The translations under genes and the position numbers were made by a program. The notes beneath the pieces were generated by a model. The model worked only from the letters and a program-made list of their open reading frames with translations, had not been told where the DNA came from and made no database searches. From Cycloclasticus sp. symbiont of Poecilosclerida sp. N (GTDB taxonomy: Bacteria > Pseudomonadota > Gammaproteobacteria > Methylococcales > Cycloclasticaceae): DNA of 64,000 nt. Shown piece after piece: positions 52,427 to 64,000 of this stretch. Location: contig LWTM01000075.1 in the NCBI GenBank assembly GCA_002101205.1, positions 124,001-188,000 on the forward strand, in the 5' to 3' direction. Every line of letters starts with the position of its first letter. Within the stretch, counting starts at the first letter, position 1.

Positions 52427-52882
52427 CTAAATGGAGCAGAAGCGTTTTTCCTTCAACGGCGCACCTTTTATTGCCTCGCGGTTTGTTTCAGGCAAACCAT
52501 AAACAGCCTGCTCCAATAACTCTGGACAAACATGGCTCGCACCGTACCATTTCTCCCACTCAGCAACATCTTTTAGCCTAAAGTCTGCGGATAAATCAAT
52601 GACTTTGATACCTGCATCCAATAGATTTTTCGCCATATACATAGCCGTTGCATTGGGCGTGGCAAAAAACACCACGTCGCAAGTCGTAAGATTTTCAATG
52701 ATAGGTTCGACAAAGCATAAATCGTTAAATCCACGCAGGTTCGGATACACCGCGTCAACTTGCAAGCCTTTTTCCGCGCGAGACGTCACCACTTGAACGC
52801 TTGCCTTCGGGTGCATAGCCAGCAACCTGAGTAATTCAACTCCGGTGTACCCTGTACCACCTACAATACCTACCTTTATCAC
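52427..52882 (-). pseudogene. argC: 5' fragment of argC (N-acetyl-gamma-glutamyl-phosphate reductase)
   Basis: The open frame of 151 aa begins normally (GTG 52882; [21 protein letters not shown]-binding) and follows ArgC to [14 protein letters not shown] near residue 140. It then diverges and stops after a short unrelated tail (KEKRFCSI). Full ArgC is about 340 aa, and the active-site cysteine segment (NPGCYPT) and the whole dimerisation domain are missing. The break lies close to the amtB terminator, so a deletion joined the two. Unless another copy exists, arginine synthesis would be interrupted. Confidence 0.85.
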
Positions 52883-52972
52883 GCTGCAACCTCATTTAAT
52901 GAAACCAGGTGACAGAACAAACGCCTGCTCAGCACATTTAAGAGGCATTATGGGCTTGGCAGAACACGATTT

Positions 52973-53089
52973 ATGGGGCTGGGCAAAAATGCAACCGTTT
53001 ATGGTTTAGCTGCCATGGCTGCGAACATTCGCAAAGGAGCTAAGTTTTTAACGCTCTACGGTATACCAGAGCAAAGTTATGCGGGGTAA
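52973..53089 (+). mobile_element. C-terminal scrap of an IS5-type transposase
   Basis: A plus frame ending at TAA 53087-53089 reads MGLGKNATVYGLAAMAANIR, then KGAKFLTLYGIPEQSYAG. It resembles the final helix of IS5-superfamily transposases (A-MAANIRKGAK). Nothing upstream belongs to it. It is not related to the soxA-linked IS5 copy. Confidence 0.5.
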
Positions 53090-53223
53090 CTGTGTCAAAA
53101 ATCAGGGAAAAGCACTAAAACCAGGAATGAAATCGATTTTTTAGGCATTAAATGACCTAAAAGCAACGTAATTGACGGAAAAATAGGGGAAGTCTCATGA
53201 AGGTGGATAAAGTTGTTGGGTTA

Positions 53224-53302
53224 CACTGTCAGCGCTAGCACCGCCAGTGCACGCACCTCCGGTCAGTGCCGGCGGTGTAAGTACACGTACTGAGGTCTCA
53301 CC
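53224..53302 (+). repeat. Direct repeat flanking the autotransporter locus (left copy)
   Basis: 53224-53253 matches 59334-59363 in 29 of 30 bases (CACTGTCAGCGCTAGCACC...). A second block CACGTACTGAGGTCTCACC (53284-53302) matches 59360-59378 with one change. The left copy has about 30 extra bases between the blocks. Confidence 0.8.
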
Positions 53303-53322
53303 CTATAAACGTTTCCAATTAT

Positions 53323-53645
53323 ATGCCACATCGTGAGGGCTATGGTTGTCGTCTCGTTAGCTCTCTCCACGCAGCCATTCCACTTCGGTTTTCTTGGCTG
53401 TTAAACAAATTAGGGGATGACTCTTGTTTTACAAGCACGCTTAAATGCTTCTCTAAACTTACTACCACCATCCACCTCAATAGAGAGTAATAAGGAGATG
53501 ATCTATCAGCGAGTCAAGAGAGCGCCTTGCAGTGCAACTGTCGAGAGTAGCTACGTATGATCGTTGTTCCTGTGATGAGGCATGTCGTGAGGGTACAGCC
53601 TTCTGTGAAGCTAACGCCCATGTGATCAACCTACATCAACTTACT
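53323..53645 (-). pseudogene. IS481-type transposase (rve) remnant
   Basis: Minus-strand fragments in shifting frames: VDHMGVSF, then TYVATLDSCTARRSLDSLID, then IEVDGGSKFREAFKRACKTR, then (with stops) PRKPKWNGCVERANETT. VDGGS-F and NG-VERAN are hallmarks of the IS481 integrase core. Multiple stops show it is dead. The plus-strand frame at 53532-53852 mostly overlaps it in antisense and is not called as a gene. Confidence 0.6.
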
Positions 53646-53844
53646 AGATTGTTTGGCTTTCATAGTATAACGCCAGCGCTTTACGTGTTACTTAAATCCG
53701 CATATTCGCTTTGGCTTAACCTGGCCGAAGTAAAACGTGACAGGAATAGTACGACCGCAGATGATTTGCTAATTGTTACCCCTTTGGATAATGTGATGGG
53801 GTTGAGCTTGATTCCTTTGATGAGCAAGCTTGGAAACGAGACAA

Positions 53845-53873
53845 AAAAATGAGGACACTTTGTCCTCATTTTT
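53845..53873. terminator. Bidirectional terminator downstream of the autotransporter gene
   Basis: Stem AAAAATGAGGACA / TGTCCTCATTTTT with a 3-nt loop, with A-run before and T-run after, so it can act on both strands. It lies 24 bp beyond the autotransporter stop. Confidence 0.9.
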
Positions 53874-53896
53874 CCTCGGGTTTTGTTATCTACTGA

Positions 53897-56275
53897 CTAA
53901 AACTTGAGATCGATACGTAACTGTATGCTGTCGTCCGTTTGTTTATGCTCACCTATTAAGTCTAGGTTCAATCTGGAATCTATTGCCCAGCGCGCGCCTA
54001 TATTATAGCTTTGCGTGTCGTTTGTCATATTTAAGCCAGCGTAAGGGGTCAATAAGCCACGGCCAAAGAATCCAGGTAGTCCGTAACCTAGCTCGGTGTT
54101 TAACTGTAGGCCTCTACTGCCGTTGCTATCCTCATCGTTTGCATAGTCAGTGATGGCTAATGGTTGCCATATTCTATCGGCAACATTGCTTGGGGTGTCG
54201 CCCCAGGCTGGTTGTAGGCTTAACCACAGACCTTGACCGCTGCTGTTAGCTCGGTATTTGACCAGACCGCTGAGTCCCCATTCTTTGTAATTTGACTCAT
54301 GTGCCAGTAAACCGTGCGCACGTAGTTCCATTTCCAGCCCTTGTGGGTTGCTGTAACGGTAGCTACCTGCTAACTCTACGCCACCGCCTGTCTCATCACC
54401 ACTGCCATCGTCATAGAGTATTCCCAGTTCTATGGATGGGCTGATGCTAGCACCGCTGGCTAGGGTGTGGTTATGACTGCCTTCTAATGCGATACGGTAA
54501 CGATGAGCGTCTATGGACAATGCTTTGGCATCGGTTAAATCGCTTTTATCCACCTTAATATTAGATAGCGAGACCTCGCCTTTAAGGCGCAAGGTGGTGG
54601 TGCCAGACAGATTTAGCCAGCTATTGCTGGATAATAAATCACCACTACCACCAAACGCTAGACTGTATAACTCGGTGTCACGGCTGCTTTTGGTTTCGAC
54701 GGTATTGATTTTATCGCTAATTTCTACCTCGCCTTGACCATAGCCGAATGTGCCCCATACCCGTCCGCCTTGTGATAAATCATAACCAAGATAGGGATGG
54801 ACGCTGGTTAGCGTATTGGTTAAGGTGTTATTGTCGTTATTTGCGCCATCGCGTTTATAGTCAATATCGCCTTCGCTGTAAGACACAGCAGCGCCTGCGA
54901 CTAGGTTTCGGCTTAGACGGGCATCAATACCCACGCTACCACCGACTATTTCACCTTCCCAGTCAACACCAGAGGCATCATCCGAAAGATTAAGGTAATC
55001 ACCACTACCCCATAGCGTCATATTATTAGCACCGTAGTTATTATCCCCCGCTACGTTCAGCGGTATGAGGAAAGAGGAATTATTAAGCATTTGCTTAATA
55101 TCCAAGCCGTCTTGTAACGCGGTGCGAGCATTATTATTGATGAGCTCTTGCAAGGTTGAGCTACCACCTAGATTAAGGCGGGCGTCTGTGCTTGCAGATG
55201 CGTCTAATGCTTGGTCAATACGGTTGCTGATATTGTCCACTGTTATTTTTGTTGTTGCTCTGAGCAGTTGTGGTAAAACCGCGTTTAGTACTTGTGTTCC
55301 GTCAACTGTGGCAGTAGTGACGGTGATCGCCACAGTGGCCATGTCGGTGCCTGCAGCATTGGTTGCAGTGATGATGTAAGGCACCTCATCGGCAACGGCT
55401 GTTGGGGTGCCGGAGATGGTGCCAGTGGTGCGGTCAAAGCTCAGGCCATTTCCGATAGGTGGGCTGATAGGTGGGCTAATGGTATAACTGACTACTGTGC
55501 CCCCTGTTGAGTCAATAGTCACAGGGACGATAGCCGTGCCTACCACTGCCTTTACTATAGAGACACTGGTGGCGATAGCTGGGAGTTCGGGCAGGGTGAC
55601 GGTGATGGTCACAGTGGCCGTGACAGGGGCAGTGCCTGGAACATCGGTTGCAGCATTGTTTGCAGTGATGGTGTAAGGCACCTCATCGGCAACGGCTGTT
55701 GGGATTCCGGAGATGGTGCCGGTCATGGTGCTAAAACGCAGCCCATTTTCGATTGCTGGGCTAATGGTATAACTGCTTACTGTGCCCCCTGTTGAGTCAA
55801 TAGTCACATCGGTGATGGCCGTGCCTACGACTGCGTTTACTATAGAGACACTGGTGGCGATAGCTGGGAGGGGGGGCAGGGTGACGGTGATGGTCACAGT
55901 GGCCGTGTTGGTGCCTGCAGTATTGGTTGCAGTGATGATGTAAGTCACCTCATCGGCAACGGCTCTTGGGGTGCCGGAGATGGTGCCGGTCGTGGTGCTA
56001 AAACTCAGACCAATCTCACTGATTTCTGGGCTAATGGCATAACCACTGGCTACTGTGCCCCTTGTTGAGTCAATAGTCACAGGGACGATGGCCGTGCCTA
56101 CGACTGCGTTTACTATAGAGACACTGGTGGCGATAGCTGGGGCACTCAGAGCACGGTTCAAGGTAAGGGTGTAGGTTTGTTCTGTCGTGCCGTCTTCGGC
56201 AGTCACTACAATTCTAATGATGTTGGCACCATCGGCCAGTCCAGTGACTCTGCCAGTGCCTGCATCGACTGTCAA
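53897..56275 (-). CDS. Autotransporter, C-terminal part (Ig-like repeats and beta-barrel), downstream of a frameshift
   Basis: 792-aa frame that carries the end of a cadherin-like domain and three putative-Ig (He_PIG) repeats of about 95 aa, each with a GLSF-TTGTISGTP-type core (roughly 40-330). A linker helix with LPQLLRATTKITVDNISNRI follows, then an autotransporter beta-barrel of about 290 aa ending in RIDLKF. The terminal phenylalanine is the Bam recognition signal. It has no signal peptide of its own and its first residues continue a domain begun in the upstream frame, so it is the second half of one gene (see 56272-59169). Confidence 0.8.
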   Translation of the reverse strand: MTVDAGTGRVTGLADGANIIRIVVTAEDGTTEQTYTLTLNRALSAPAIATSVSIVNAVVGTAIVPVTIDSTRGTVASGYAISPEISEIGLSFSTTTGTISGTPRAVADEVTYIITATNTAGTNTATVTITVTLPPLPAIATSVSIVNAVVGTAITDVTIDSTGGTVSSYTISPAIENGLRFSTMTGTISGIPTAVADEVPYTITANNAATDVPGTAPVTATVTITVTLPELPAIATSVSIVKAVVGTAIVPVTIDSTGGTVVSYTISPPISPPIGNGLSFDRTTGTISGTPTAVADEVPYIITATNAAGTDMATVAITVTTATVDGTQVLNAVLPQLLRATTKITVDNISNRIDQALDASASTDARLNLGGSSTLQELINNNARTALQDGLDIKQMLNNSSFLIPLNVAGDNNYGANNMTLWGSGDYLNLSDDASGVDWEGEIVGGSVGIDARLSRNLVAGAAVSYSEGDIDYKRDGANNDNNTLTNTLTSVHPYLGYDLSQGGRVWGTFGYGQGEVEISDKINTVETKSSRDTELYSLAFGGSGDLLSSNSWLNLSGTTTLRLKGEVSLSNIKVDKSDLTDAKALSIDAHRYRIALEGSHNHTLASGASISPSIELGILYDDGSGDETGGGVELAGSYRYSNPQGLEMELRAHGLLAHESNYKEWGLSGLVKYRANSSGQGLWLSLQPAWGDTPSNVADRIWQPLAITDYANDEDSNGSRGLQLNTELGYGLPGFFGRGLLTPYAGLNMTNDTQSYNIGARWAIDSRLNLDLIGEHKQTDDSIQLRIDLKF

Positions 56276-59169
56276 AGCACTGCCGTCTGCCGTCGTACCA
56301 CTAACGGCAAAGGTGGCAGGGTACCGGTAGTGAGCCTCGGCTCTACCCTTAAGCTGGTTACTGTGTTGCGAATGCTGGCGGTATAGTTAAGCCTGTCGCT
56401 GTTAAAGGCTAAGGCGACGCCTGCGTCTCTAAGGACTAGACCGCTCAAGGTGGCAACGTTACTGGCAACATCAACGCTAAGCGTATTGGAAGCTGCATTG
56501 CCATTGGCTGCCGTATCTTCTGCTTTACTTGCAGGCACTGCCACGGTGATTGTAGCACCTTCCGATCCCGCCTGTGGCGTGATGGTCGCAGTGTACAGGA
56601 GTGGATTGATACCATCTACGACTGGGGCGCTTGCCGTGCCCCTTGTCACTGTAATATCGTCCACACTATCAAAGCCGGTGACAGCCTCACTAAAGGTGAA
56701 GGTGACGGTAAAGTCGTCGCTGACTGTGACTGGGGTTGCCAATCCGTCTGACCGCATAATAGTTACAGTTGGGACAGTCGTATCGGCAGGTGTCGCAGGG
56801 GTGACAGTGATGGTCACTGCGTTGGTCGATGCCAGACCACCTGAATCGGTAACGGTCAACCTGAATGTCAGTGCAGTACCTACCGCTAAACCTGCTGGCA
56901 CCCTGAAAGTCGGGGCTATCGACGTGGGTGTGTTCAGCCCTATGCCCGCACCTGACTGACTGCCGGTTGGGGAAGTCTGCGTCCAGACATAGCCCAAAGC
57001 TCTGTTTGCGGCGTCGTCCTCAGCATCTCTACTGTCAGAGCCGACAAGGGTCACCGTTGCACCTACAACCGCATTTTGTGCCACGCCTACATTGGCAACC
57101 GGTGCCGTATTGGGGGTGGTGGGGGTGGCCGGGTCGGGTGTCACTGTAATTTGCACTGTATCGGCGGCACTGCGCTGACCATTATCATCCACCGTCAAGG
57201 TAAAGTCGTAGGTCGTTATGGTGCTCACGTCAGGGGCAGTAAAGCTGGGTCCTATACTATCGGGATTGGTTAATACAATGGCGCTATCAACTGAGACCCA
57301 CCGATGCCCTGTTGCTGCTGCGCCGCCAAGCCGGCCGCTTGCACTACCATCCAAGGTCACCTCTGCATCGGCTACCACTTGCTGATCAGGCCCTGCATCT
57401 GCCAGCGCATTGACATTGATAGTGACATGATCATTTGCCGAGCGCACGCCCTGACTATCGGCAACCATCAGAGAAAAAGTCAAGGCATAATCGCCACCCG
57501 GAGCCTGTGGTCGGGGTGCCGTCACTGTCAGCTGTTGTGAGCGCGTGTCTGTTAAGCCGGCACGCGGACCTGCGCCAACCTGCTGCCAGAAGAAAGTATC
57601 TATCGGGCGGCCTTCTGGGTCATCTTCCAAGTCTACGCCCGCACCGCTGAGCGTAACCACGGTATTTTCATCTACTGCTTGATCTTCGCCAGCCATTGCA
57701 ATAGGCACTTTATTGGGAGCCTCTGAGCGCTCAACCACAGTGAGCCTGAATCGTTGTTCTAGTTGGACAGAATCAGTGACGGCACTGTCTTGAACTAGGT
57801 ATCCAAACACGACCGTGCCTAAGGCGGTTGGCGTCCCGTCAATGGTCGGCGGAGTAAACCGCGCATCTGTCTCGACGTTTAATCCGGCTGGCACTGTACC
57901 CTCGATACTAATTGCATACGATGGTCGTCCCGGATTCCGAAGGGCGGCTGGTAACGTCAGGCTAAAAGGCTCACCCCGAAAGATAATAATGTCATCGATG
58001 AATGGCAAGCCAATGCTTCTATCTGGACTCACGGCTAAAGTGAACTCATCGGTAACCGTGTGTTCCCCATCGCTTACTGCCACTCTAAAAATAAACGACA
58101 CTCCGAAAAGAGCGGTCTGCAGATCCGCACAACAATTCCTCAATGCTTCCACGGAGGGTGTTTGAAACAATGCTTCCGCCTGATCTGTTTGTGTAAAACT
58201 ATACGTACTAGGGGTCAGCCCCCCGGGAGTATTCCCGCCATTATCTTCTATGCCTGCTATGCTCCATTCATAGGTTAACGGTCTGCCTTCCGGGTCTGTA
58301 TAGGTGGCGACTAACGGCACAAGATCGGAACCGGTGGCAAAACTACCTGTGTTACCAGTCCCAACAGTACCACCCCGTATAATTCCGCTTGGTGGCTCAT
58401 TACTAGCCAGCACCCTCAGCCGCACCTCAACCGGTGGCGATTGCAAAGCACCCTCTGTGACCACCAAACGAAACTCCAGATCACTGTCGGCTATCAGGTT
58501 CGGCACATTAAAACTTGCCTGTACGCTAGTGGCACCGCGTATCTCCACCTCTTCACCGCCAATCTGCGTCCATTGATAACCCAAGGTGCCGTCGGCGGCA
58601 GCGGCACTGCTGGTGCTAGCATCCAGAATAATCTGGGCAGTGTGGGTATCAGCCGCCTCAGCTTGGCTAATGGTCGCCATCGCAGTTGGTAAACCTGAGT
58701 TTGGCGTGGCACTTTCGATGACTGAATAAGCACCATCGCCGTTAGTGTTTATCGCACGGACGCGATAAAAATACGCAACCCCCGCAGTCAAGCTGGTATC
58801 AATATAAGTTGTCGCCAATGATTGCACTGGCACAACCATAGTGTTGACACCGATAGAGAAGCCTAAGTCGGTGGCGCGTTCAACCTGATAGGCAGTCAAG
58901 GTTGAATCTCCAATTTCTAATGGAGACTCCCATTCCAGCTTCAAGCTCTGCTCGTCTAAGGCATAGACCTGCAAGCCGGTTACCTGACCCGGAAGGGGAT
59001 GCGAGTTTGCCTGTGCGCTCCCTTGTTGCGTAAACAGCACGCATAGCAAACCGCCTAACAGTAAACGGCACATGGCATTGCATCGCTTTTTTATCCATCG
59101 CTCGTGGCTTATTCTTGCTGTCATCATCCTATGCCGACTCATAAATTCCATAAATGTAGATTTAAGCAC
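56272..59169 (-). CDS. Autotransporter, N-terminal part (signal peptide, FN3, PKD/cadherin-like passenger), frameshifted at its 3' end
   Basis: 965-aa frame. GTG 59169 or ATG 59151 opens an extended signal region, with a hydrophobic core CRLLLGGLLCVLFTQQGSAQA near residues 34-54. A fibronectin type III domain (about 60-155, LKLEWESP, AYFYRVRAINTNGDG), several PKD/Ig-like domains (DAGPDQQVV, TLDGSAS, DSRDAEDD) and a bacterial Ig/cadherin-like stretch (VTFTFSEAVTGFDS) follow. Near 56331-56345 the coding sense shifts by one base: the +1 frame reads AHYRYPATFAVSGTTADGS and continues smoothly into the 53897-56275 frame. Repaired, the gene would encode about 1757 aa, a large surface adhesin-like autotransporter. 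Confidence 0.78.
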   Translation of the reverse strand: MLKSTFMEFMSRHRMMTARISHERWIKKRCNAMCRLLLGGLLCVLFTQQGSAQANSHPLPGQVTGLQVYALDEQSLKLEWESPLEIGDSTLTAYQVERATDLGFSIGVNTMVVPVQSLATTYIDTSLTAGVAYFYRVRAINTNGDGAYSVIESATPNSGLPTAMATISQAEAADTHTAQIILDASTSSAAAADGTLGYQWTQIGGEEVEIRGATSVQASFNVPNLIADSDLEFRLVVTEGALQSPPVEVRLRVLASNEPPSGIIRGGTVGTGNTGSFATGSDLVPLVATYTDPEGRPLTYEWSIAGIEDNGGNTPGGLTPSTYSFTQTDQAEALFQTPSVEALRNCCADLQTALFGVSFIFRVAVSDGEHTVTDEFTLAVSPDRSIGLPFIDDIIIFRGEPFSLTLPAALRNPGRPSYAISIEGTVPAGLNVETDARFTPPTIDGTPTALGTVVFGYLVQDSAVTDSVQLEQRFRLTVVERSEAPNKVPIAMAGEDQAVDENTVVTLSGAGVDLEDDPEGRPIDTFFWQQVGAGPRAGLTDTRSQQLTVTAPRPQAPGGDYALTFSLMVADSQGVRSANDHVTINVNALADAGPDQQVVADAEVTLDGSASGRLGGAAATGHRWVSVDSAIVLTNPDSIGPSFTAPDVSTITTYDFTLTVDDNGQRSAADTVQITVTPDPATPTTPNTAPVANVGVAQNAVVGATVTLVGSDSRDAEDDAANRALGYVWTQTSPTGSQSGAGIGLNTPTSIAPTFRVPAGLAVGTALTFRLTVTDSGGLASTNAVTITVTPATPADTTVPTVTIMRSDGLATPVTVSDDFTVTFTFSEAVTGFDSVDDITVTRGTASAPVVDGINPLLYTATITPQAGSEGATITVAVPASKAEDTAANGNAASNTLSVDVASNVATLSGLVLRDAGVALAFNSDRLNYTASIRNTVTSLRVEPRLTTGTLPPLPLVVRRQTAVL

Positions 59170-61519: not shown

Positions 61520-62190
61520 TTCAAAGAAGTTGTTAGAGAACTTATTCGGTACTTTTCTATCGACTTAAACGTCAGCTAAATAGCTAAATTAACGTTACTT
61601 AGCCGCCAAACGACCAACACTTAATTTGACGGCGATTAGATCTCGAATAGTCATTTTTTGTGAGCAAGAATTTTCTTGCTTTAGCAGGACAAATTAAAGT
61701 TGATGAAAGCGACTTAAGCCAGAAGACAAGGTTTATACTCAGACAGTCCCAAACGCCTCAGCATCAACATTACAGCCGATTATATGGGGAAAGGCCGATA
61801 TCAATAGTGTTATTCATTTTGATGGTTGGCGCGGTATAATAGACTTATCTATCTTTGGTTATAAGAAGCATTTTAGGGCGCATCGTGGCCAAAATGAGTT
61901 TTTTAGAGGTACGAGTCATATCAATGGAATTGAGTCGTTGTGGGCTATGCTAAAATGCGACGGGTGCAGTTTAAAAGGATGGATAAAGGTATGTTCAATT
62001 TACACCTTAAACAGTGTGAGTTTAGGTTTAATAATCGAGAGCAAGGTCTATACAATATTTTGCTCAAAAGGTTCAAAAAAGAGCCGCTTAACTTGGCATG
62101 GTCCAAAAACATTATTGTACTGGGTGTTCCACAAGCTAAGCAAGTCCGCATGACTTTACATAATTCTTCGTGGATTATTGAACAATAGCT
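61520..62190 (+). mobile_element. IS1595 (ISXO2-like) transposase remnant
   Basis: The DDE core reads DINSVIHFDGWRGIIDLSIF, GYKKHFRAHRGQNEF and HINGIESLWAMLK (about 61797-61960), then shifts frame to FNLHLKQCEFRFNNREQGLY and LLKRFKKEPLN (to about 62187). Upstream traces include GQIKVDESDL. These match the ISXO2-like domain. Frameshifts and stops interrupt it. It adjoins the yajQ pseudogene and ends about 10 bp before nth. Confidence 0.75.
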
Positions 62191-62200
62191 TCGGTGTTTT

Positions 62201-62836
62201 ATGAATAAGAGTAAACGCCAAGAGATTTTCGAACGGCTAAACAAAGCAATTCCAGACCCAAGAACCGAGCTCAATTACAGTTCGCCTTTTGAATTGCTTA
62301 TTGCTGTTATTCTCTCTGCTCAAGCAACGGATAAAGGCGTAAATAAAGCGACTGCAAAACTATATCCCATAGCCAACACGCCCCGCACTATTTTTGACCT
62401 TGGTGAGACTGGACTAAAAAAATATATTAAAACCATTGGCCTGTTTAACACCAAAGGCAGCAACATCATAAAAACCTGTAAAATGTTGATGGAGTTGCAC
62501 GAAAGCAATATCCCGCAAACACGCATAGAACTTGAAGCTTTACCCGGCGTAGGTCGAAAAACAGCAAACGTTGTTTTAAATACTGCCTTTGGCGTACCTA
62601 CGATTGCTGTCGATACGCATATTTTTAGAGTGAGCAATCGCACCAAAATTGCTGCCGGAAAAAGCGTATTAGACGTTGAAAAAAGACTTGAAAAAAACGT
62701 GCCTAAGGCATTCAAGCTTAACGCACATCATTTGCTGATCCTGCATGGCAGATATACTTGTATCGCTCGCAAGCCAAGGTGCGGCTCATGTGTGATTGAA
62801 GACTTATGTGAATTTAAACAAAAAACCAGTCTCTAG
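62201..62836 (+). CDS. nth: Endonuclease III
   Basis: 211-aa base-excision DNA glycosylase/AP lyase for oxidised pyrimidines. Helix-hairpin-helix LPGVGRKTANVVL with catalytic lysine (about 114-126), catalytic aspartate in IAVDTHIFRVSNR, and a C-terminal [4Fe-4S] loop with four cysteines in CIARKPRCGSC and DLC. Intact despite the IS remnant immediately upstream. Confidence 0.97.
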   Translation: MNKSKRQEIFERLNKAIPDPRTELNYSSPFELLIAVILSAQATDKGVNKATAKLYPIANTPRTIFDLGETGLKKYIKTIGLFNTKGSNIIKTCKMLMELHESNIPQTRIELEALPGVGRKTANVVLNTAFGVPTIAVDTHIFRVSNRTKIAAGKSVLDVEKRLEKNVPKAFKLNAHHLLILHGRYTCIARKPRCGSCVIEDLCEFKQKTSL

Positions 62837-63050
62837 GTATTGGATATTATTGAGGCCTAAATACGCATTGCAGCGCTATTTCAAGTATTACACGTTAAAC
62901 CAATTTACAAAGTTAATTGGTGTTGCAAGTTTTTTAAACTTTCCATGGTCTAGTAAATCGCATATAGTTAACCAGTCAGCTCTTGTCCGCTCTTTGTGCA
63001 AGATGTCTGGATTTACAGTTCGTACTTTTATTATAACAAAAGGATATTTT

Positions 63051-63497
63051 ATGAAAAACTCTACAAAAAAACCATTAGTCGCGGCTTTAAGCGCCGCATT
63101 CGTAACATCTATAGCATTTGCTCCTGCAGCAAACGCTGACACAAGCCCATTCGGCGCAACTGAACTTGAAACTGGCTACATGGTTCTTGCTGAAGGCAAG
63201 TGTGGCGAAGGCAAATGTGGTGACAAAAAGAAATCCGAAGCTAAATGTGGCGAAGGCAAATGTGGTGACAAAAAGAAATCCGAAGCTAAGTGTGGCGAAG
63301 GCAAATGTGGCGACAAAAAGAAATCCGAAGCTAAGTGTGGCGAAGGCAAATGTGGCGACAAAAAGAAATCCGAAGCTAAGTGTGGCGAAGGCAAATGTGG
63401 CGACAAAAAGAAATCCGAAGCTAAATGTGGCGAAGGCAAATGTGGCGACAAAAAGAAATCCGAAGCTAAGTGTGGCGAAGGCAAATGTGGTTCTTAA
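63051..63497 (+). CDS. hvfA: HvfA-like secreted precursor peptide with 14 E(G/A)KCG motifs
   Basis: 148-aa product from ATG 63051 (AAGGA 6-7 nt upstream); the longer in-frame extension to 62796 overlaps nth and is rejected. A signal peptide (1-30, ending ANA-DT) and a short spacer (ATELETGYMVLA) precede a pure repeat core. Residues 48-147 are EGKCG, EGKCG, then six copies of DKKKSEAKCGEGKCG, and a final Ser. That makes 8 EGKCG and 6 EAKCG, with all 14 cysteines in KCG. In Haemophilus HvfA, EGKCG cysteines are converted by the MNIO enzyme HvfB to oxazolone/thioamide groups that bind copper. The MNIO gene follows 19 bp later. The modification here is inferred from that family. Confidence 0.88.
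   Translation: MKNSTKKPLVAALSAAFVTSIAFAPAANADTSPFGATELETGYMVLAEGKCGEGKCGDKKKSEAKCGEGKCGDKKKSEAKCGEGKCGDKKKSEAKCGEGKCGDKKKSEAKCGEGKCGDKKKSEAKCGEGKCGDKKKSEAKCGEGKCGS
63192..63491 (+). repeat. 45-bp tandem repeat array encoding the RiPP core
   Basis: 300 bp made of two 15-bp units and six 45-bp units, differing only by silent changes such as AAA/AAG and GGT/GGC. It is in frame throughout. Near-identity implies recent expansion or ongoing homogenisation. Confidence 0.95.
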
Positions 63498-63516
63498 GTC
63501 AGTAAGTTAATTTAGA

Positions 63517-64000
63517 ATGATGACAAGTACCTTTCCAGTTAATGGAGCAGGTCTCGGATTAAGGCGAGCCTTCATCGGCTCGCTATCTGAGCGACCTCCC
63601 AACAATGTCGATTTTTACGAAATCGTGCCTGAAAACTGGATTCGTATTGGCGGGAGTTTTGGCAAACAACTGCGTGCCTTAACGGAACAATTCCCCTTTG
63701 TTACTCACGGCTTATCACTCAGCTTGGGTAGCCCAGATCCAATTGATGTAGCGTTTGTGCGCGATATTCGCGACTTTTTAAAACTCCATCAAATTGAAAC
63801 TTATACCGAACACCTCACGTACTGTAGTGATGGCGGACATATGTACGACTTAATGCCCATCCCGTTTACTGAAGAAGCGGTTAATTACGTGGCTGATAGG
63901 ATTATTCAAGTACAAGATATTTTAGGCAAACAAATCGCTATCGAGAACGCCTCTTACTACGCGGCCCCAGGTAAAGAGATGGAAGAAATTGATTTCATTA
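63517..64000 (+). CDS. hvfB: DUF692/MNIO-family peptide-modifying enzyme, HvfB-like (3' truncated by window)
   Basis: 161 codons are visible before the window ends; two adjacent ATGs (63517, 63520) are possible starts. The DUF692 TIM-barrel signatures appear in order: GAGLGLRR (10-17), FYEIVPENW (33-41), THGLSLSLG (63-71), YTEHLTY (96-102) and IENASYY (142-148). They carry the His/Glu/Asn residues expected for a multinuclear iron site. MNIO enzymes oxidatively modify cysteines of a neighbouring precursor. The adjacent repeat precursor is the obvious substrate. An HvfC/DUF2063-type partner and a DoxX protein would be expected just beyond the window. Confidence 0.92.
   Translation, partial: MMTSTFPVNGAGLGLRRAFIGSLSERPPNNVDFYEIVPENWIRIGGSFGKQLRALTEQFPFVTHGLSLSLGSPDPIDVAFVRDIRDFLKLHQIETYTEHLTYCSDGGHMYDLMPIPFTEEAVNYVADRIIQVQDILGKQIAIENASYYAAPGKEMEEIDFI

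Follow-up and report, generated by a model that had tools for sequence, protein, structure and literature searches.

We analyzed a 64,000-nucleotide stretch of DNA (the window) from a Cycloclasticus symbiont of Poecilosclerida sp. N. At its right-hand end lies an hvfA-like precursor gene, followed by a gene for a DUF692 (MNIO) enzyme. The features are listed in Table 1. All 14 cysteines of the precursor fall within KCG motifs, and reading the open reading frame bore out the eight EGKCG and six EAKCG motifs counted in the original prediction, as well as the 19-bp gap between the precursor stop codon and the ATG of the MNIO gene. The N terminus, MKNSTKKPLVAALSAAFVTSIAFAPAANA followed by D, has the charged, hydrophobic, and AxA parts of a Sec signal peptide, as judged by eye only. 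Within this putative signal peptide, A15 is invariant in 22 relatives and A29 nearly so. A short leader, SPFGATELETGYMVLA, follows and precedes the 101-residue core with the 14 KCG sites; P33, F34, G42, and Y43 of the leader are invariant in these 22 relatives too. Chance can be set aside as an explanation, for reading frame, leader, and enzyme are all conserved both within the genus and outside it.

Table 1. Features of the hvf locus, in window coordinates
Feature	Position	Strand	Basis or remark
Predicted ECF-type promoter of hvfA, TGCAAG-N17-GGTCTA	62924..62952	+	Upstream-region alignment
hvfA-like precursor gene	63051..63497, stop included	+	Encodes 148 aa with 14 cysteines, all in KCG; Sec signal peptide putative
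Putative signal peptide	63051..63137	+	Cleavage after ANA, by eye
Core of 14 EGKCG/EAKCG sites in 15-residue units EAKCGEGKCGDKKKS	63192..63494	+	TRF, codon comparison
hvfB, MNIO (DUF692) maturase	63517..64000	+	First 161 of 285 codons in window; remainder on same contig

The precursor matched the NCBIfam model for the HvfA family repeat domain (NF050137) in six stretches, with 121.6 bits against a cut-off of 19.5. Its score with the strict HvfA equivalog model (NF050188) was 91 bits, 4 bits below the cut-off of 95, and we therefore file it as a member of the HvfA family rather than as a strict HvfA equivalog. No second EGKCG precursor was found elsewhere in the genome. AlphaFold returned an unfolded, low-confidence model (mean pLDDT 42, pTM 0.12). 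The "beads on a string" imagined in the original prediction would fit this model, although the evidence is weak. A beta-helix, which is the published model for a mid-size Buf_EGKCG precursor (PMC12452194), is unsupported for the precursor studied here, for which the modeling gave no confident fold; nor does the AlphaFold model amount to real evidence of disorder.

The MNIO reading frame is complete past the window edge on the same contig (C75) and encodes 285 residues. It is overlapped by 38 bp by a gene for a 265-residue DUF2063 protein, HvfC, also beyond the window on that contig. The complete enzyme and the overlapping partner gene establish the locus as hvfABC. NCBIfam models name the HvfA-family repeat, HvfB, and HvfC. 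The HvfA/HvfB-type copper RiPP locus originally predicted is the right family. The enzyme scored 341.8 bits with PF05114 (cut-off, 25) and 426.4 bits with the HvfB equivalog model NF003818 (cut-off, 360). Conversely, the models for the bufferin maturase BufB (NF050167; 265.4 bits, cut-off 310) and for MbnB-type methanobactin enzymes (TIGR04159; 44.6 bits, cut-off 325) stayed below their cut-offs. HvfC scored 278 bits with NF050145 (cut-off, 142), 90.1 bits with PF09836, and 84.9 bits with PF22106. The enzyme has a homologue in the PDB (3BWW; E value, 2.4e-68) and the partner matches 3DEE, two structures that have been assigned to the captophorin pathway (PMC13097082). Only one MNIO is encoded in the genome.

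The residues expected of such an enzyme are conserved. D175, N177, and N178 of the DINN motif and D220 and H222 of the DxHG motif are invariant in 18 sequences, and these motifs correspond to the residues published as essential in HvfB (N175, D242, and H244). The residues published as conferring Lys-Cys specificity on FonB (Arg15/Arg16, Asp249, and Phe250) are present as R16/R17 and D251/F252. Together, the essential and specificity residues are mostly invariant in the 18 aligned sequences.

Downstream of hvfC are hemL, a truncated globin gene, and a gene that by eye is DedA-like. Of the two kinds of gene that the original prediction proposed to look for past position 64,000, hvfC (DUF2063) is there and DoxX is not linked: no DoxX gene (hvfX) adjoins the cluster, and the only one detected in the genome is on another contig. 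DoxX is not needed in captophorins, as the fon cluster does without it (PMC13097082). No copper gene is adjacent to hvf. The order nth-hvfABC-hemL is kept across Cycloclasticus, and nth-hvfABC extends to more distant Gammaproteobacteria. In the window (62201 to 62836) and in loci L003 to L064, the gene nth, for endonuclease III, immediately precedes hvfA in Cycloclasticus and lies a short way upstream of it in many Gammaproteobacteria that are only distantly related (Thiohalobacter, Methylobacter, and others), a stable arrangement with no obvious functional reason. In one Cycloclasticus relative, two genes for what by eye is a cytochrome bd-like oxidase lie between hvfC and hemL (L004, 6929 to 9601).

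The core is encoded by a single tandem array at positions 63198 to 63490, with a period of 45 bp, 6.5 copies, and 97% match (TRF). The full repeats vary at synonymous sites only (AAA/AAG and GGT/GGC), with the exception of the first motif, which is EGKCG in place of EAKCG. This near-absence of amino acid differences points to recent tandem duplication. The number of cysteines ranged from 4 to 15 among 62 precursors (this one and those of related loci), and 5 of the 62, including this one, have 14 or 15. Precursors from Cycloclasticus alone carry 4 to 14, the present one having the most; its nearest relative, whose MNIO is 93% identical, has 7. Microbulbifer precursors have five to eight (PMC12538549), and the Buf_EGKCG/oxazolin family has 17-residue repeats in variable number, with up to 58 cysteines (PMC12452194). 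Given this published maximum and the range seen here, 14 sites are high and not exceptional. The expansion is a quantitative variant, and the 15-residue unit with its DKKKS linker is a local flavor. Near-identical 45-bp units in a draft assembly could also be misassembled, in which case the copy number would be an artifact and the real core shorter or longer. The array covers about 293 bp in a draft of 77 contigs and the nearest relative has half as many cysteines, yet synonymous changes tell some of the units apart and relatives with 12 to 15 cysteines exist in other assemblies. We consider such an artifact unlikely.

Upstream of hvfA we found a candidate promoter. When the sequences upstream of 15 Cycloclasticus hvfA genes were aligned, every one contained a TGYAAG-N17-GGTCTA block (TGAAAG in some). 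In a genome-wide search the long form of this pattern matched hvfA alone, and the two-box form was needed to go further: TGYAAG-N17-GGTCT matched three times in the 1.9-Mb genome (control, 0), namely, at the hvfA promoter, directly before an ECF sigma factor gene on another contig (C77, in the region 77000 to 79800), and inside a coding sequence judged by eye to be of the HIT family. The ECF factor is PRK12517-like and resembles NF009170, with a score below the cut-off of that model. Its gene was present in 17 of 18 genomes of the genus searched and was preceded, in all 17, by the element in the form TG[TCA]AAG with a varied spacer. In the present genome, its translation may begin at a TTG 5 bp past the element or at a GTG another 45 bp downstream. 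A DUF3379 gene follows, and its product is plausibly the anti-sigma factor. NrsF, the anti-sigma factor known from Buf1 clusters, was not found in the genome. Outside Cycloclasticus, a loose form of the pattern occurred at 10 of 46 other loci in scattered positions, and we make no claim there.

Both boxes have been kept while the spacer between them varies, ahead of the sigma factor gene and ahead of hvfA alike. This pattern is the hallmark of an ECF factor that regulates itself and has hvf among its targets. From these sequence comparisons we infer that hvf is under such control in Cycloclasticus, which is new here and is the most useful addition of this analysis. The prediction agrees with the published ECF control of hvf in Haemophilus influenzae (RpoE2) and Neisseria (SigE) (PMC7907618). 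A rival reading concerns function: the main role could be defense against oxidative stress (hypochlorite or peroxide) or another thiol-reactive envelope stress, with copper binding secondary. The H. influenzae operon, controlled by RpoE2, was studied under HOCl stress (PMC7907618), and the element that hvfA has in common with the ECF factor in Cycloclasticus would suit such a role. The EGKCG products characterized so far, however, bind Cu(I) (PMC13097082, PMC12538549), and we regard a primary role in such stress defense as rather improbable.

The chemistry can be drawn from relatives with the same motifs, which carry 5-thiooxazoles and bind copper (PMC13097082, PMC12538549). The oxazolone/thioamide pairs that the original prediction ascribed to Haemophilus HvfA were the first assignment for oxazolin. 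This has since been revised to 5-thiooxazole, the group also found for fontiphorin and gonophorin (PMC13097082), and the group behind oxazolin agrees (PMC13419390). FonA, with seven sites, binds up to four copper ions (PMC13097082); by analogy, the 14-site HvfA might hold about seven. The Microbulbifer equivalents are not induced by copper and give little protection (PMC12538549), and the lack of copper induction is a warning against assuming that hvf serves copper detoxification.

As to the host, the closest matches are from Cycloclasticus, the top one being a symbiont of the mussel Bathymodiolus heckerae. The original prediction had placed the locus in a sulfur oxidizer; soxB is indeed present, within the window, but no dsrA scored above the cut-off in the genome, and a hydrocarbon oxidizer with a copper monooxygenase fits better. 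The genome has an AMO/pMMO-family gene (PF02461, 364.6 bits) on a contig other than that of hvf, so copper is needed as well as toxic there. Cycloclasticus with pHMO and sox genes, and the use of pHMO on short alkanes, have been described (PMC12510462). The modified peptide might hold or supply copper mainly for the hydrocarbon monooxygenase rather than for detoxification. The monooxygenase gene and the described alkane use are what such a role would call for, but the two loci lie on different contigs, no copper-uptake gene was seen adjoining hvf, and the element common to hvfA and the ECF factor suggests that stress is the inducer. Many hvf-bearing relatives, for example, Pseudoalteromonas, are to our knowledge not known for a copper hydrocarbon monooxygenase, which also counts against it. 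We hold this role to be very unlikely. Unlikely as well is a combined reading, in which the operon and the one autoregulated ECF factor (PRK12517-like, with its DUF3379 partner) would form a minimal regulon, the copy number of the 45-bp repeat would tune copper capacity, and copper would be buffered for the hydrocarbon monooxygenase as well.

The reading that we favor, with a probability of roughly 85%, is that this is an hvfABC cluster belonging with the EGKCG captophorins (oxazolin/fontiphorin type) and making an ECF-induced, periplasmic multi-thiooxazole buffer or sink for Cu(I). HvfA would be synthesized with a Sec signal peptide and the 14-cysteine repeat core, and HvfC, as the RRE partner, would present it to the iron enzyme HvfB. 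By analogy with relatives, HvfB would oxidize each Lys-Cys site, with loss of four hydrogens, to a 5-thiooxazole, moving along the repeats. The modified HvfA would then be exported to the periplasm, where it would bind Cu(I), probably one per about two sites, and act as the buffer or sink. The dedicated, autoregulated ECF factor, which has a DUF3379 partner, would probably turn on transcription when the cell meets envelope, oxidative, or metal stress. What the sequences show directly is which genes are present and to which families they belong, that the catalytic residues are conserved, that hvfA and the ECF gene have a promoter element in common, and how the repeats are built. The literature on relatives supplies the chemistry and the copper binding; modification at all 14 sites, the location, the copper stoichiometry, the regulator, and the inducer are predicted parts of the reading. 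Against it count that neither a copper gene nor a DoxX gene adjoins the cluster, that the HvfA equivalog model is missed by 4 bits, and that the Microbulbifer genes did not respond to copper and protected little (PMC12538549).

The Cycloclasticus locus is one more instance of a gene trio that is widespread and has been described before, in which the cysteines of an exported, repetitive peptide are made into rings that bind copper. It stands out only for the freshly duplicated 14-cysteine repeat and the predicted stress-sigma-factor switch. It resembles HvfABC (X) of H. influenzae, the oxazolin system, in the EGKCG precursor (with a Sec signal peptide that is putative here), the MNIO maturase, and the DUF2063 partner. 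It differs in having 14 sites rather than 6, no linked DoxX, an HvfA equivalog score just under the cut-off, and a different predicted ECF factor. The fontiphorin system of Fontimonas thermophila (FonABC, captophorin class; PMC13097082) is likewise a minimal three-gene cluster with the same enzyme specificity residues, and its precursor also sets EAKCG beside EGKCG in EAKCGEGKCG pairs (SGEAKCGEGKCGEK); it has 7 sites against 14, whereas the precursor studied here has a regular 15-residue unit with the DKKKS linker. Variable numbers of paired EGKCG repeats are shared with the Buf_EGKCG/oxazolin family, found mostly in Pseudomonadota (PMC12452194), in which the repeats are 17 residues long, in contrast to 15 here. 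Bulbicupramide of Microbulbifer (MmrABC; PMC12538549) is alike in its two-cysteine cassettes, lysine-rich linkers, MNIO, and DUF2063 protein; Cu(I) binding was found there, with five to eight sites and no copper induction. With this locus, Cycloclasticus, a key marine degrader of oil and gas, would join the hosts of copper-binding thiooxazole peptides. The natural series of 4 to 14 sites in one genus, with the same enzyme and leader, suits the study of repeat number versus copper capacity, and the predicted ECF regulator makes what captophorin peptides respond to directly testable.

Other parts of the window drew our attention as well. Positions 61700 to 62190 contain fragmentary frames that by eye resemble a decayed transposase (IS1595-like), a guess that found no Pfam match. 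A 1,683-bp direct duplication, 99.3% identical, links window positions 52454 to 54136 with the end of the contig (C75; L002, 16878 to 18560). Within it, argC is truncated in the window copy, and its intact start lies close to where the contig ends; the 3' end of an autotransporter-like gene is also included. The contig breaks inside this duplication. On the minus strand, at positions 53897 to 59169, two adjacent long open reading frames of 965 and 792 residues overlap by 4 bp in different frames; together they resemble a single surface protein, rich in repeats and with a C terminus of autotransporter-like character, as if split by a frameshift.
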